A stretch of 64,000 bases of DNA, taken from contig NZ_CP036261.1 in the NCBI RefSeq assembly GCF_007741475.1, forward strand, positions 7,317,798 to 7,381,797. The letters run 5' to 3'. The notes beneath the pieces were generated by a model. It did no database searches. It had not been told where the DNA came from and saw nothing but the letters and a program-made list of their open reading frames with translations. Source of the DNA: Rosistilla ulvae (GTDB lineage Bacteria > Planctomycetota > Planctomycetia > Pirellulales > Pirellulaceae). This document shows, one piece after another, positions 37,371 through 58,530 of the stretch (positions are counted from its first letter, which is position 1; each line of letters starts with the position of its first letter). The translations under genes were made by a program, and so were the position numbers.

Positions 37371-39686
37371 ATGGACTTAATTCTCGACAACTTGACCGAC
37401 CCGCAGCGAGCCGCGGTCACGCACATGGATGGTCCGATGTTGATGCTCGCCGGCCCCGGCAGCGGCAAGACCCGCGTGGTCACCCATCGGATCGCGCATC
37501 TGTTGCGGGAAGGAGTCCCCGCGTCGCAGATCCTGGCGTTGACGTTCACCAACAAAGCGGCGGAGGAGATGTTGGCCCGCGTCCAACAACTCGCTCCCGG
37601 CGAACCGGTTTGGATGAGTACGTTCCACCGCTTTTGCGCCCGCATGTTGCGACAATATTCGTCGCTGGTCGGGCTGCAAGAGAACTACTCGATCTACGAC
37701 ATGGCCGACGCCAAGGCGACGATGAAGCGGGCGATCGAGGTCTCGGGGATCTCGCTGAGTCACACGTCGCCCGATCAGATCGCCAACGCGATCAGCCACT
37801 TCAAAAATCAATTGCTGACGCCCGAGTCGATGGAAGGGGTGAATCTGCCAGCGGGCAAAATGCTCGCCGCCAAGGTCTATCCTTATTACCAACAGTTGCT
37901 GTTGGTCGCCAACGCCGTCGATTTCGATTGCATGCTGCTGCACGTCGCCCGGATGCTGCGCGAGAACCCCGAATTGCGAGAAGCCTTGGATTCGCGGTTC
38001 CGCTACATCATGGTCGACGAATACCAGGATACCAACCTGGCTCAATATGCGATCGTCCGTTCGCTGTCGGTCGTCCACCAGAATCTGGCGGTGACGGGGG
38101 ATCCCGATCAATCGATCTACGGTTGGCGTGGAGCGAATCTGAACAACATCCTCGACTTTGAAAACGATTACCCGCAAGTCAAAACCGTTCGGCTGGAACA
38201 GAACTACCGCAGCACGCCCAACATTCTGCGGGTGGCCGATCAATTGATCACCAACAACACCCGCCGCAAGCACAAGGGGTTGTACACGCACAATCCCGAA
38301 GGAGCGGCGGTGCGGTTGCGGATCTACGCCAACGGTTATCAGGAAGCGGACGACATCGCCGATCAGATCGTCGAACAGATCCAGAATCACGGCCGTAGCC
38401 CCAAGGACTTTGCGATCCTGTGCCGGATGAATTATCTGACCCGATCGTTGGAACATTCGCTCCGCTCCCGCGTCGTCCCCTACACGATCGTTCGAGGCGT
38501 CGAGTTCTATCAGCGGAAAGAGATCAAGGATCTGCTCTCCTATCTGCAACTGATCAACAACCCAGCCAACGACGCTGCGCTGTCGCGGATCGTCAACACG
38601 CCGGCTCGCGGGATCGGCAAGACGACGATGGACCGAGTGATGTTATACGCCGCTCGGCACCGGATTCCACTGTTCGAAGCGATCTGCCGCTGCGATGAAA
38701 TTGAATCGATCAAACCGCGAACCCGTGGGCTGTTGAAACGTTTTGTCGGAATCATCGACGCGCTCAGCCGCAAGGCTTCGTCCAGCCTCGAGGATCTGTT
38801 GCGGTTCGTGTTGGAGCAAACGCAGTACAGCGATTACCTGCGGTTTTCGACAGTCGAAGGAGAGGATAACGACGCGCTTGCGAACGTCGACGAATTGGTT
38901 TCCGCCGCCGTCGAATTCGATCGCCAGCATCCCGACGATGGATCGCTGGAAACCTTCCTGGAGCAGGTCGCGTTGATCTCCGATACCGATGCGTGGGAAG
39001 AATCGAGCGATCGCGTGACGCTGATGACCCTGCACGCCGCCAAGGGGCTCGAATTCCCTTGCGTCTATATCATCGGTGTCGAGGATCAAGTGCTGCCGCA
39101 CCATCGCAGCCACGATGATCCGATGCAGTTTGAAGAGGAGCGGCGGTTGCTGTTCGTGGGGATCACGCGAGCTGAACAGACGCTGCAGTTGAGCATGGCC
39201 AAGCTGCGATCGGCCCGCGGTAGCATGCGGCCCGCCGCGGCCAGCCCGTTCCTGTTGGAACTGCCTCGCGAAGAGATGCAGGTGATCGATGCCCATCAAC
39301 CGACGCAATACGGCGACGACAACGACTTCGATGTCGACGTCGAATATCCCGAGGCATGGGATATGCACGCTGATCACGACGACGATCTGAATCAATTGCC
39401 GCCCGAAGAACGGACGCCCGAAACCACCTCCACCCCGCGAACCGCTCCGATCGCATCGGTCACGACCGCCGCCCAAATGCTCGAACAGCAGATGGCCAAC
39501 ACGATCGATCCCGAGATCTATACGGTAGGGATGATCGTCAGCCATCCCGAATATGGCAGCGGCCGGATCCAGAGTCTGTCCGGTTCGGGAGGCAAGCGGA
39601 CGGCGACTGTCAACTTCTTTGTCGACAGCATCGAACGCCGCTTCCGACTCTCCCACGCCCAACTGACGATCGAAAGCGAAGATTAG
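37371..39686 (+). CDS. uvrD: UvrD/PcrA/Rep-type superfamily I DNA helicase
   Basis: 3'-5' DNA helicase of repair or replication restart. 771 residues: Walker A in LAGPGSGKTRVV (motif I, near residue 28), motif Ia LTFTNKAAEEM, motif II VDEYQDTN, motif III VTGDPDQSIYGWRGA, motif IV QNYRS, motif V near VTLMTLHAAKGLEFPCV and motif VI GITRAEQ. The C-terminus has an acidic stretch (DDNDFDVDVEYPEAWDMHADHDDDL) and a short beta domain ending RFRLSHAQLTI (a Tudor-like PcrA tail: VSHPEYGSGRIQSLSG). The ATG at 37371 has AAGG upstream, and the TTG at 37368 just before it is a less likely start. Length is typical (720-770). Confidence 0.95.
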   Translation: MDLILDNLTDPQRAAVTHMDGPMLMLAGPGSGKTRVVTHRIAHLLREGVPASQILALTFTNKAAEEMLARVQQLAPGEPVWMSTFHRFCARMLRQYSSLVGLQENYSIYDMADAKATMKRAIEVSGISLSHTSPDQIANAISHFKNQLLTPESMEGVNLPAGKMLAAKVYPYYQQLLLVANAVDFDCMLLHVARMLRENPELREALDSRFRYIMVDEYQDTNLAQYAIVRSLSVVHQNLAVTGDPDQSIYGWRGANLNNILDFENDYPQVKTVRLEQNYRSTPNILRVADQLITNNTRRKHKGLYTHNPEGAAVRLRIYANGYQEADDIADQIVEQIQNHGRSPKDFAILCRMNYLTRSLEHSLRSRVVPYTIVRGVEFYQRKEIKDLLSYLQLINNPANDAALSRIVNTPARGIGKTTMDRVMLYAARHRIPLFEAICRCDEIESIKPRTRGLLKRFVGIIDALSRKASSSLEDLLRFVLEQTQYSDYLRFSTVEGEDNDALANVDELVSAAVEFDRQHPDDGSLETFLEQVALISDTDAWEESSDRVTLMTLHAAKGLEFPCVYIIGVEDQVLPHHRSHDDPMQFEEERRLLFVGITRAEQTLQLSMAKLRSARGSMRPAAASPFLLELPREEMQVIDAHQPTQYGDDNDFDVDVEYPEAWDMHADHDDDLNQLPPEERTPETTSTPRTAPIASVTTAAQMLEQQMANTIDPEIYTVGMIVSHPEYGSGRIQSLSGSGGKRTATVNFFVDSIERRFRLSHAQLTIESED

Positions 39687-39738
39687 GGGTTTGTCAAACT
39701 TTGATTTTAGGATTGGTGGGAGTGGGCGAGGTCACGAG

Positions 39739-39994
39739 CTGTTGATTACCCACAAGTCGCAACTACGCCGACGGCGTGGCAGCCATTAGCCGGTGGTTGA
39801 GCGAACGCGATACCACCGGAATGACACGAGACGCGAACGGCCGACCGCGAAGGCGGTCGCAGCGCAACTGCATGGGATTCTGCGACCGCCTTCGCGGTCA
39901 ACTTAGCGAGTTACGTTCGATACCGTAGGTGGCGCTGCGCTTACCTACGGCTAATTGCTTGATTCCCTTCGGGAAATTTGTGGGTAACCGACAG
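39739..39994. mobile_element. MITE-like element, 256 bp, 17-bp terminal inverted repeats, 11-bp target duplication
   Basis: The left end CTGTTGATTACCCACAA (39739-39755) pairs with the right end (39978-39994), whose inverse is CTGTCGGTTACCCACAA: 15 of 17 match. Immediately outside both ends is the identical 11-base sequence GAGGTCACGAG (39728-39738 and 39995-40005), the signature of an insertion. Inside, a perfect 19-bp inverted repeat (39843-39861 with 39881-39899) forms a large hairpin. There is no open frame of useful length, so it must rely on a transposase encoded elsewhere. The ends share 11-12 of 17 bases with the Tn5/IS50 outer end (CTGT, TTA, CACA), which suggests an IS4-family parent. 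No copies elsewhere in this window. Confidence 0.9.
39843..39899. repeat. Perfect 19-bp inverted repeat inside the element
   Basis: GACCGCGAAGGCGGTCGCA at 39843 is exactly inverted at 39881-39899, with a 19-base loop. It could form a hairpin of very high stability in RNA or single-stranded DNA. Confidence 0.9.
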
Positions 39995-40324
39995 GAGGTC
40001 ACGAGTCCCCATAATTTCTGGCGCGAAAGGATTCGTGACCTCGTCCACTACGCTGAATTCAAATGTGGATGAAGCACTAGCAGCGGTTCGGCTAGCCGAG
40101 CGTCGTTTGCGAGCGAGGCTCTTTAAGAAAAAGGACTGAAGGGAGGGAGCCACAATTCGCTACATTCCCCAGTCTCTGGACGCTAGCAGTCGCTGCGGCG
40201 GTTGGTTTCGGCGTTTTCATCAAACAACCCAGCCGAAGGGTAAGGTTGACCGCGGCGATTACCGATAGAACCGATGTCGATCGTTGCTCGCGCTCCTGCC
40301 TTCCTCGCCTGAGAGAATGTCTTG

Positions 40325-56233: not shown

Positions 56234-57934
56234 ATGAAAAAACGTCCTGGCGGGATCATCCATTCGTATCAGAAATTTGATCCGGCGCAATTCCCCAGCC
56301 CGACGCAGCCGCCTCCCGATTTGGTCTCGTCGGCGTTTGAACACGCGATGATGTTCGGCAACTATCGCGAGTTGTCCGAAGAGGAGTTGGCCCGCGCGGT
56401 GCGACTCGATCCCAGCCAGATCGCCGGCCTGGGGCCGAGCATCGACATGTTGCGCCAGATGCTCGAAGAGCGGAAACGCAAAATCCTGGAGACCTACGAA
56501 ACCGCAGCGGCTCAAAAGCGCGCCCGCCGTGCGTACCAACAGAGTGCCAGTGCTGTCCGTCCGCCCAAAGATCTGGAGAAGGCGTACCGCCGCGGGATCG
56601 CCGAAGAACAGCCGTATGATCTGGAACGGCTGTGGTATCGGGCCGACAGCGATCACTCTCCTTTTGCTCTCGGTTTGCTGGGCGTGATGCAGCGGATGAA
56701 CGACAAGCTGCAGATCGCTGAACTTGTCAGCAAATATGAGTTCACCGGCCGGGAACCGATGTCGGTCCCCAAGGCGTTGGAGATCAAGGAGGAGTTGGAG
56801 AAGATCGATGAACTGCTGCGGCAGCTCGAAGAAGCTGCCAAGACGGCGCAGATCGGGATCATCGATATGGATCTGTTGCAGGAGTTCACCGAGCCGGGCG
56901 ATTTGAATCAACTGGAAGAACTCCGCCAGCAGGTCGAGAACTACATGCGCGAACAGGCCGAACGGCAGGGGCTCGACCGCGATAACAAAACCGGCAACTA
57001 CCGACTGACACCGCACGCCTACAAGCTGTTCCAGGGAAAACTGCTGTCGCGGATCTTCAGCGACCTGCAAGCCTCTCGCAGCGGCCGGCATCCCGACGCG
57101 GTCGAAGGGGACGGAGCGGTGGAACTGCAGCAGACCAAGCCCTACGAATTCGGCGACAGCGTTGCCAACATCGACCTCCCGCAGACCGTCATCAACGCCC
57201 TGTTGCGGCATGGCGACACGCGGCCGCTACAGTTGCGCAGCGAGGATATCGAAATCCACAAGACGCGGAACCATCCCAAGTGCGCCACGTGCGTGATCAT
57301 GGATATGAGTGGTTCGATGCGGTACGACGGGCAATACATCAACGTCAAACGGATGGCCTTGGCGCTGCAGGGACTGATCACCAGCGAATACCCCGGCGAC
57401 TTCCTGCGGTTTATCGAAATGTACACCTTCGCCAAGATGCGGCACGCCAGCGAGTTGATCGAACTGATGCCCAAGCCGGTCACGATCCACGATCCTTGGG
57501 TGCGGTTGAGAGCGGATATGAGTCGCGAGGATATCAGCGAATCGCAGATCCATCCTCACTTCACCAACATCCAACGCTCGCTGCAATTGGCTCGGCAGAA
57601 TCTGGTGACGACCGACACGCCCAACCGTCAGATCGTATTGATCACCGACGGCCTGCCGACAGCCCACTTCGAAGACAACAACCTGTTCATGCTCTACCCG
57701 CCCGATCCGCAGACCGAACAAGCGACGATGCGTGAAGCGATGCTCTGTCATCGCGAGGGGATTACGATCAACATTTTCTTGATCCCCAGTTGGTCGCAGA
57801 GCGAAGCGGACATCCGGTTTGCGTATCGATTAGCCGAAAGCACCAAAGGCCGGGTGATCTTTACCAGCGGCAAAGACCTCGATCGCTTCGTCATCTGGGA
57901 TTACGTCAGCAACCGCCGCGAGATCATCGGTTAG
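56234..57934 (+). CDS. VWA-domain protein, ChlD-like partner of the MoxR ATPase
   Basis: 566 residues from the ATG at 56234. The N-terminal part is helical and rich in Arg, Gln and Glu (including IKEELEKIDELLRQLEE, a coiled coil near 175-190). The C-terminal von Willebrand A domain (about 345-540) carries the metal-ion site DMSGSM (357-362, DxSxS), the later Thr/Asp positions in ITDGLPTAHF. In the same arrangement as ChlI-ChlD or RavA-ViaA, the AAA+ and VWA partners form a complex. The earlier part of the frame, back to 56093, contains repeat DNA and is not coding. No signal peptide, so cytoplasmic. Confidence 0.9.
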   Translation: MKKRPGGIIHSYQKFDPAQFPSPTQPPPDLVSSAFEHAMMFGNYRELSEEELARAVRLDPSQIAGLGPSIDMLRQMLEERKRKILETYETAAAQKRARRAYQQSASAVRPPKDLEKAYRRGIAEEQPYDLERLWYRADSDHSPFALGLLGVMQRMNDKLQIAELVSKYEFTGREPMSVPKALEIKEELEKIDELLRQLEEAAKTAQIGIIDMDLLQEFTEPGDLNQLEELRQQVENYMREQAERQGLDRDNKTGNYRLTPHAYKLFQGKLLSRIFSDLQASRSGRHPDAVEGDGAVELQQTKPYEFGDSVANIDLPQTVINALLRHGDTRPLQLRSEDIEIHKTRNHPKCATCVIMDMSGSMRYDGQYINVKRMALALQGLITSEYPGDFLRFIEMYTFAKMRHASELIELMPKPVTIHDPWVRLRADMSREDISESQIHPHFTNIQRSLQLARQNLVTTDTPNRQIVLITDGLPTAHFEDNNLFMLYPPDPQTEQATMREAMLCHREGITINIFLIPSWSQSEADIRFAYRLAESTKGRVIFTSGKDLDRFVIWDYVSNRREIIG

Positions 57935-58530
57935 CCAAAGGTCGCCACCAAAAATACGGGCGAGAAATACCAGCACGAAGCGCAAGCGAGTGAACTCTCG
58001 GCAAACAATCACTCGCTTGCGCTTCGTGCTCGTATGGGCCGCACGCACTTTCGCGGAGCGAAAGGCGACCAACCAACCGATCATCCGTCACCAAGACAAC
58101 ATCGCTCGAGGAAGCGACCAAGGCCGGAGGCCGACACATCTCCTGCCGGGGTCGTAAGGCCCCGGTGCCTTGCAGGTAGGAAGCGAGCGATGGTCGCCTT
58201 TCGCTCCGCGAAAGTGCGTCCGCGCCACATCCTCTCTCACGAATCGCCGCCAAAAACACGAGCACGAAATACTAGCACGAAGCGCGAGCGAGTGAACTCT
58301 CGAGAGAAACAATCACTCGCTTGCGCGTCGTGCTAGTATGGGCGATGGTCGCCTTTCGCTCCGCGAAAGTGCGTCCGCGCCACATCCTCTCCCCTAAATC
58401 GCCGCCAAAAACGCGAGCACGAAATGCCAGCACGAAACGCAAGCGAGTGAACTCTCGAGAGAAAAATCACTTGCTTGCGCTTCGTGCTGGTATGGGTACG
58501 CACTTTCGCGGAGCGAAAGGCGACCAACTT
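57935..58530. repeat. Array of palindromic repeats, three large hairpins
   Basis: Three copies of a hairpin whose arms contain AGCACGAAGCGCAAGCGAG and its inverse. In the first copy the arms (57973-57994 and 58010-58031) are perfectly complementary over 22 bases; the second (58273-58335) and third (58428-58490) have one or two changes. Between them lie blocks TCGCCTTTCGCTCCGCGAAAG, which are in turn inverted copies (near 58043-58073, 58189-58235, 58344-58390 and 58497-58527). The array fills the gap between the VWA gene and the RND gene. No gene is supported. Confidence 0.92.

Follow-up and report, generated by a model that had tools for sequence, protein, structure and literature searches.

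The transposase of Tn5 is the standard random-insertion enzyme, its target preference being only loose and its insertion almost random. To our knowledge, the way in which the Tn5 fold chooses its target is little understood. The IS50 subgroup of the IS4 family is described by the end signature CW------Y---CA-A--W-, with a direct repeat of 8-9 bp for IS50 (PMC2266710). The same account places the insertion sequence (IS) ISRm22 in the IS4Sa subgroup, and gives the IS231 group duplications of 10-12 bp, target specificity and ends that start with CAT (PMC2266710). ISRm22 is the nearest precedent for a REP-directed IS of the IS4 family: all ten of ten copies in S. meliloti lie in REPs, with 6-bp repeats at the palindrome axis, and ISs directed to REPs have been described in several families, IS3, IS110 and IS4 among them (PMC1525189). 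REPs tagged with GTAG, which form dimers and clusters, are reported also from Planctomycetes (PMC3733652).

Here we describe a 256-bp MITE in a 64,000-nucleotide stretch of the Rosistilla ulvae genome (the window), and a 1543-bp IS of the same genome (G000; one contig of 7,475,804 bp). The IS is like IS50/Tn5 in its transposase domains, its PDB match, its size and its ends, but it duplicates 11 bp rather than 8-9 bp, and its target is near-strict where the preference of Tn5 is loose. Like ISRm22 it is an IS4-family element found in REPs; it differs in being IS50-like and in duplicating 11 bp off the axis. It shares with the IS231 group a 10-12-bp duplication and target specificity, but its ends start with CTGT. 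Its target resembles the GTAG-tagged REPs in tag, dimers and clusters, but neither G000 nor a second genome, G002, yielded a RAYT accompanying the unit. In the open-access literature, surveyed by titles and the openings of abstracts, we found neither this element nor any IS50-like element with REP specificity. What is new is such an element, with an 11-bp instead of an 8-9-bp duplication, and its MITEs.

A MITE in one arm of a palindrome

The element occupies positions 39739-39994 of the window (forward strand). Its left terminal inverted repeat (TIR; 39739-39755, forward) pairs with the right one (39978-39994, reverse) at 15 of 17 positions, and GAGGTCACGAG stands exactly on both flanks, at 39728-39738 and 39995-40005 (both forward). 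These features, and the lack of a gene inside, are as the original prediction from the sequence had described them: no ORF of at least 80 aa was found within the 256 bp. The predicted inner inverted repeat is also present and perfect, although it is 20 bp long and not 19 (39843-39862, forward, and 39880-39899, reverse), and the element folds far better than its shuffles (z -8.9). Exact 11-bp repeats that lie 150-2000 bp apart around an inverted repeat of 15/17 or better are found a single time in the window, and in none of 20 windows with shuffled two-base blocks. Rfam gave no match at E <= 0.1 for the region 39500-40300.

The left 11-mer is part of one arm of a palindrome. This arm is a REP-like 23-mer unit on the forward strand, the first 20 bases of which lie at 39719-39738 (two mismatches to the motif described below), whereas its closing TCC is found at 40006-40008, the unit being split by the MITE and the duplication. 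The opposite, right arm is a second unit matching the motif on the reverse strand, at 40029-40051.

Identical MITEs and a full-length IS in the same genome

A 278-bp query consisting of the element and its flanks matched two more full copies with 11-bp flanks in G000 (100% and 99%), one copy at 93%, and diverged copies. The MITEs at 5684285 and 5784238 match that of the window at 256/256 positions, making three identical copies in total. There are also two longer relatives, of 400 and 440 bp, with the same type of ends. Searching G000 with the 16-bp end (<=3 mismatches) revealed nine full-length ISs, which measure 1543 bp in eight cases and 1534 bp in the ninth. The copies differ pairwise at 0-7 positions, or 19-22 where the 1534-bp copy is compared, and the coding frame is 481 aa in 8/9 copies and 413 aa in the 1534-bp copy. 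The left ends of MITE and IS share 22 identical bases, and the right ends 17/20. Thus the proposal of a non-autonomous transposon, for which a full-length IS4-like transposase gene with the same ends had been expected in the genome, holds. The copies had also been expected to carry different 11-bp flanks; this expectation failed, the flanks being nearly identical at most copies, because the target is one REP-like motif.

The window element is short and non-coding, carries the TIRs of an autonomous IS and a target duplication, and is present in several copies; its identification as a MITE with IS4-family (IS50-like) ends is therefore supported. The shared ends and the shared target suggest that it is moved in trans by the IS transposase. 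A recent insertion had been proposed because the duplication is still exact, which alone is weak evidence; recency rests better on the three identical MITE copies and the low divergence of the ISs. In a separate region of G000 (3286000-3290000), there are two copies of the initial 167 bp of the IS, 472 bp apart and next to masked N.

The transposase is IS50-like

The IS encodes a single-ORF DDE transposase of 481 aa, in which YVARWPIEVFFRVFK provides the Y(2)R(3)E(6)K motif of the IS4 family. It scores above cut-off with PF14706 (72.4 bits) and PF02281 (57.8 bits), the Tn5-type N-terminal and dimerisation domains of the IS50 subgroup, and below the cut-off of 23 with PF01609 (20.9 bits). It also matches NCBIfam NF033590 (358.7 bits) and, in the PDB, Tn5 transposase (E about 1e-28). 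Both ends of the IS and of the MITE agree with the published IS50-subgroup signature at 7/7 positions, which bears out the IS4-type ends of the original prediction, and 1543 bp lies inside the 1350-1550 bp of the subgroup. The duplication, an exact 11 bp in 29 of 35 elements and 8 bp in one, corresponds to the roughly one helix turn of the IS4 family, but not to the 8-9 bp of the subgroup. Because of these 11 bp, we file the IS as IS50-like within the IS4 family and not as a plain member of the IS50 subgroup.

A scan across contigs of other organisms turned up a single relative, a partial one, which belongs to Roseimaritima sediminicola (Pirellulaceae). Distant relatives of the transposase are 54% (G001), 40% (G066), 36% (G016) and 35% (G061, with two stops) identical, and neither a REP unit nor an end pair was found at these four loci. 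The relative in G001 (2251980-2253347) has an open frame, in a locus with no REP unit or recognised end pair.

The target is a dispersed REP-like unit

The target is a GTAG-tagged REP-like 23-mer, GTAGTGGAC-GAGGNNACGAG-TCC, dispersed in the genome. At up to two mismatches, GTAGTGGACGAGGNNACGAG has 95 arms in G000 and 0 with a reversed-pattern control. The arms group into 52 loci, in which empty inverted pairs span 62-76 bp. At 15 of these loci an IS or MITE either interrupts or borders the repeat, two truncated IS ends included. The unit starts with GTAG and is found singly, in inverted dimers or in direct arrays, in agreement with the tag, copies, dimers and clusters of GTAG REPs. The REP dimers, that of the window (about 39687-40080) among them, are embedded in larger repeats of at least two kinds.

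Among 60 genomes of the family, the motif has a match in 20, many with only 1-9 hits and some not above the control. It is abundant (at least 21) in G000, G002, G012, G014, G053 and G066, and is counted 152 times in G001. In G012 and G014, the IS was unmatched as DNA and its transposase at 1e-40; hence the repeat is not dependent on the IS.

Insertion at one bond in three species

We collected 35 full-length elements from three species of the genus: nine ISs and six MITEs in G000, 17 ISs in G002 and three MITEs in G001. We left out two truncated IS left ends abutting a REP in G000 (3287964 and 3288436), as well as a G001 element of which one end is poor (2076062). The same bond of the 23-mer was used by 30/35 elements, and by one more on one side, and 4/35 were elsewhere. 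An exact 11-bp duplication is present in 29/35. The segment duplicated at the unit is GAGGNNACGAG, the two variable bases of which (NN) differ between copies. The elements off the unit are two ISs in G000, one with a different exact 11-bp duplication and one with 8 bp, and two of the three G001 MITEs. Two REP insertions have unequal duplications (L003 and L158), and one is broken on one side (L160). In G002, the end sequences pair only at 1543 bp, giving no MITE with those ends and only partial interior matches; in G001 there are MITEs but no close IS, only the 54% transposase relative. Judging from these junctions, joining occurs at a fixed bond with an 11-bp stagger, in both orientations and in both arms of dimers.

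The 11-mer by itself has 125 sites in G000, compared with 42 for the reversed-pattern control. Among the 50 of these sites that were listed, 11 lie outside REP units and elements, and 0/11 border an element. We rejected the 11-mer alone as the target on these small numbers; the flanks of the unit therefore seem to matter.

Recognition could instead depend on a hairpin or cruciform formed by the REP dimer. Most targets are indeed inverted dimers, these fold strongly (z about -11), and other REP-directed ISs have been linked to palindromes (PMC1525189). However, the stem of a single unit is only 4 bp long, and three units tested singly were no more stable than their shuffled counterparts (z 0 to -0.65). 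Moreover, no inverted partner lies within 150 bp of two targets, a solo unit (L067) and a unit in a direct array (L144); a third (L161) is also in a direct array. Since L067 and L144 lack a partner, the palindrome seems not to be required. We therefore regard recognition of structure as unlikely, and recognition of the sequence of the unit rather than of the palindrome as more likely, on few cases.

We also think it rather improbable that a helper, such as a REP-binding or RAYT-like protein, brings the IS to the unit. The three genomes contain 17 Y1_Tnp matches, one of which (L181, in G001) has a REP dimer nearby; this is the only one of the 17 with a unit near it. No unit lies within about 1.5 kb on either side of any of the seven matches in G000 or the five in G002, and a fixed bond would suit direct reading better.

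Homologous recombination or gene conversion between repeats that contain REPs, in place of targeted transposition, would account for the location of REP dimers in two kinds of larger shared repeats, and for two MITE copies in another genus (G092) whose long common flanks look like those of one duplicated locus. As an explanation of the set as a whole it is very unlikely: insertions are found in either arm and in either orientation (12 ISs opposite to the unit and 11 in the same orientation), the NN bases vary between copies yet agree on both sides in 28/30, and direct arrays are also targeted. Recombination could nonetheless be how some copies spread, given that the dimers are embedded in larger shared repeats.

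Orthologous sites with and without an element

At the window locus, G002 has a palindrome with an intact left arm and a single 11-mer, that is, the empty site of the MITE; the comparison with a relative thus establishes that the predicted target duplication is a true one. A full IS is present at the same locus of G002, a sister species; the palindrome there is locally rearranged and the IS sits in a second copy of its right arm, so that the MITE of G000 is in the left arm and the IS of G002 in a neighbouring one. G001 has neither palindrome nor element at this locus, the whole REP-containing composite being absent. Elsewhere in G000, an intact palindrome with a single 11-mer and flanks about 96% identical corresponds to the G002 IS at 6820383, and an empty palindrome corresponds, on the left flank, to the G001 MITE at 2052019. 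One orthologous site carries the IS in opposite orientations (G000 2111573 and G002 3705772), which may reflect two insertions or an inversion between the TIRs. At window positions 57933-58530, about 600 bp of hairpin-rich repeats are found where the orthologous place in G001 holds a 256-bp MITE.

That the shared 11-mer belongs to a longer element, with no target duplication, has next to nothing in its favour beyond the nearly constant 11 bp flanking most copies, and is ruled out by the single 11-mer of the empty sites, in addition to REP units without an element in G000 and other genomes and two IS copies with other flanks, in one of which another 11-bp sequence is exactly repeated.

Two further genera show insertion at this same bond of the unit. 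An IS remnant in G053 (346 columns, 83% DNA identity) stops precisely at a REP unit, and in G092 a 72% relative of the MITE lies in a REP unit, the duplication being GAGGCGACGAG; the two G092 copies, which share long flanks, were counted as one event.

Proposed mechanism and significance

We hold with considerable confidence that the 256-bp MITE is mobilised in trans by the 1543-bp IS50-like IS, and that both join one bond of the REP-like 23-mer with an 11-bp stagger, in either orientation and in either arm. By analogy with Tn5, the DDE transposase would pair two ends starting with CTGT, cut the element out and join it to target DNA, and repair of the 11-bp gaps would create the duplication. 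The transposase of the IS would act on the MITE in trans, and would itself, rather than a helper, select the REP unit. Counting against this reading are the four of 35 elements off the unit, the three unequal or one-sided REP insertions, and the distant transposase relatives whose loci have no REP unit. Landing in an intergenic repeat may spare genes.

A broader proposal is that a transposase of the Tn5 fold with no extra domain (its 481 aa make it as long as Tn5 chains) recognises about 20 bp of target DNA by their sequence, makes an 11-bp stagger, and has kept this specificity across genera of one bacterial family. We consider the case for it evenly balanced. If true, target choice by the Tn5 fold can evolve from near-random to site-specific. 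A natural relative that targets one bond in a 23-mer would offer a direct comparison for locating target recognition, the MITE has the same target habit as its IS, and the REP-like repeat is a landing pad for an IS50-like lineage.

Related MITE interiors

Three loci in G000 (109664, 158584 and 6972722; L009, L010 and L012) have related MITE interiors with different ends, which we take to resemble the Tn5 outer end. L012 has a 10-bp duplication, GACTCGCGTC, and the flanking repeat of L010 is inverted, not direct. Relatives of the MITE interior at three further loci (L007, L011 and L166) lie beside another GTAG-like repeat (GTAGTGGATCTTG / CAAGATCCAC), which is perhaps a second target. At 104694-108032 of G000, hairpins resembling the ones within the MITE adjoin an IS200-type (Y1_Tnp) gene.
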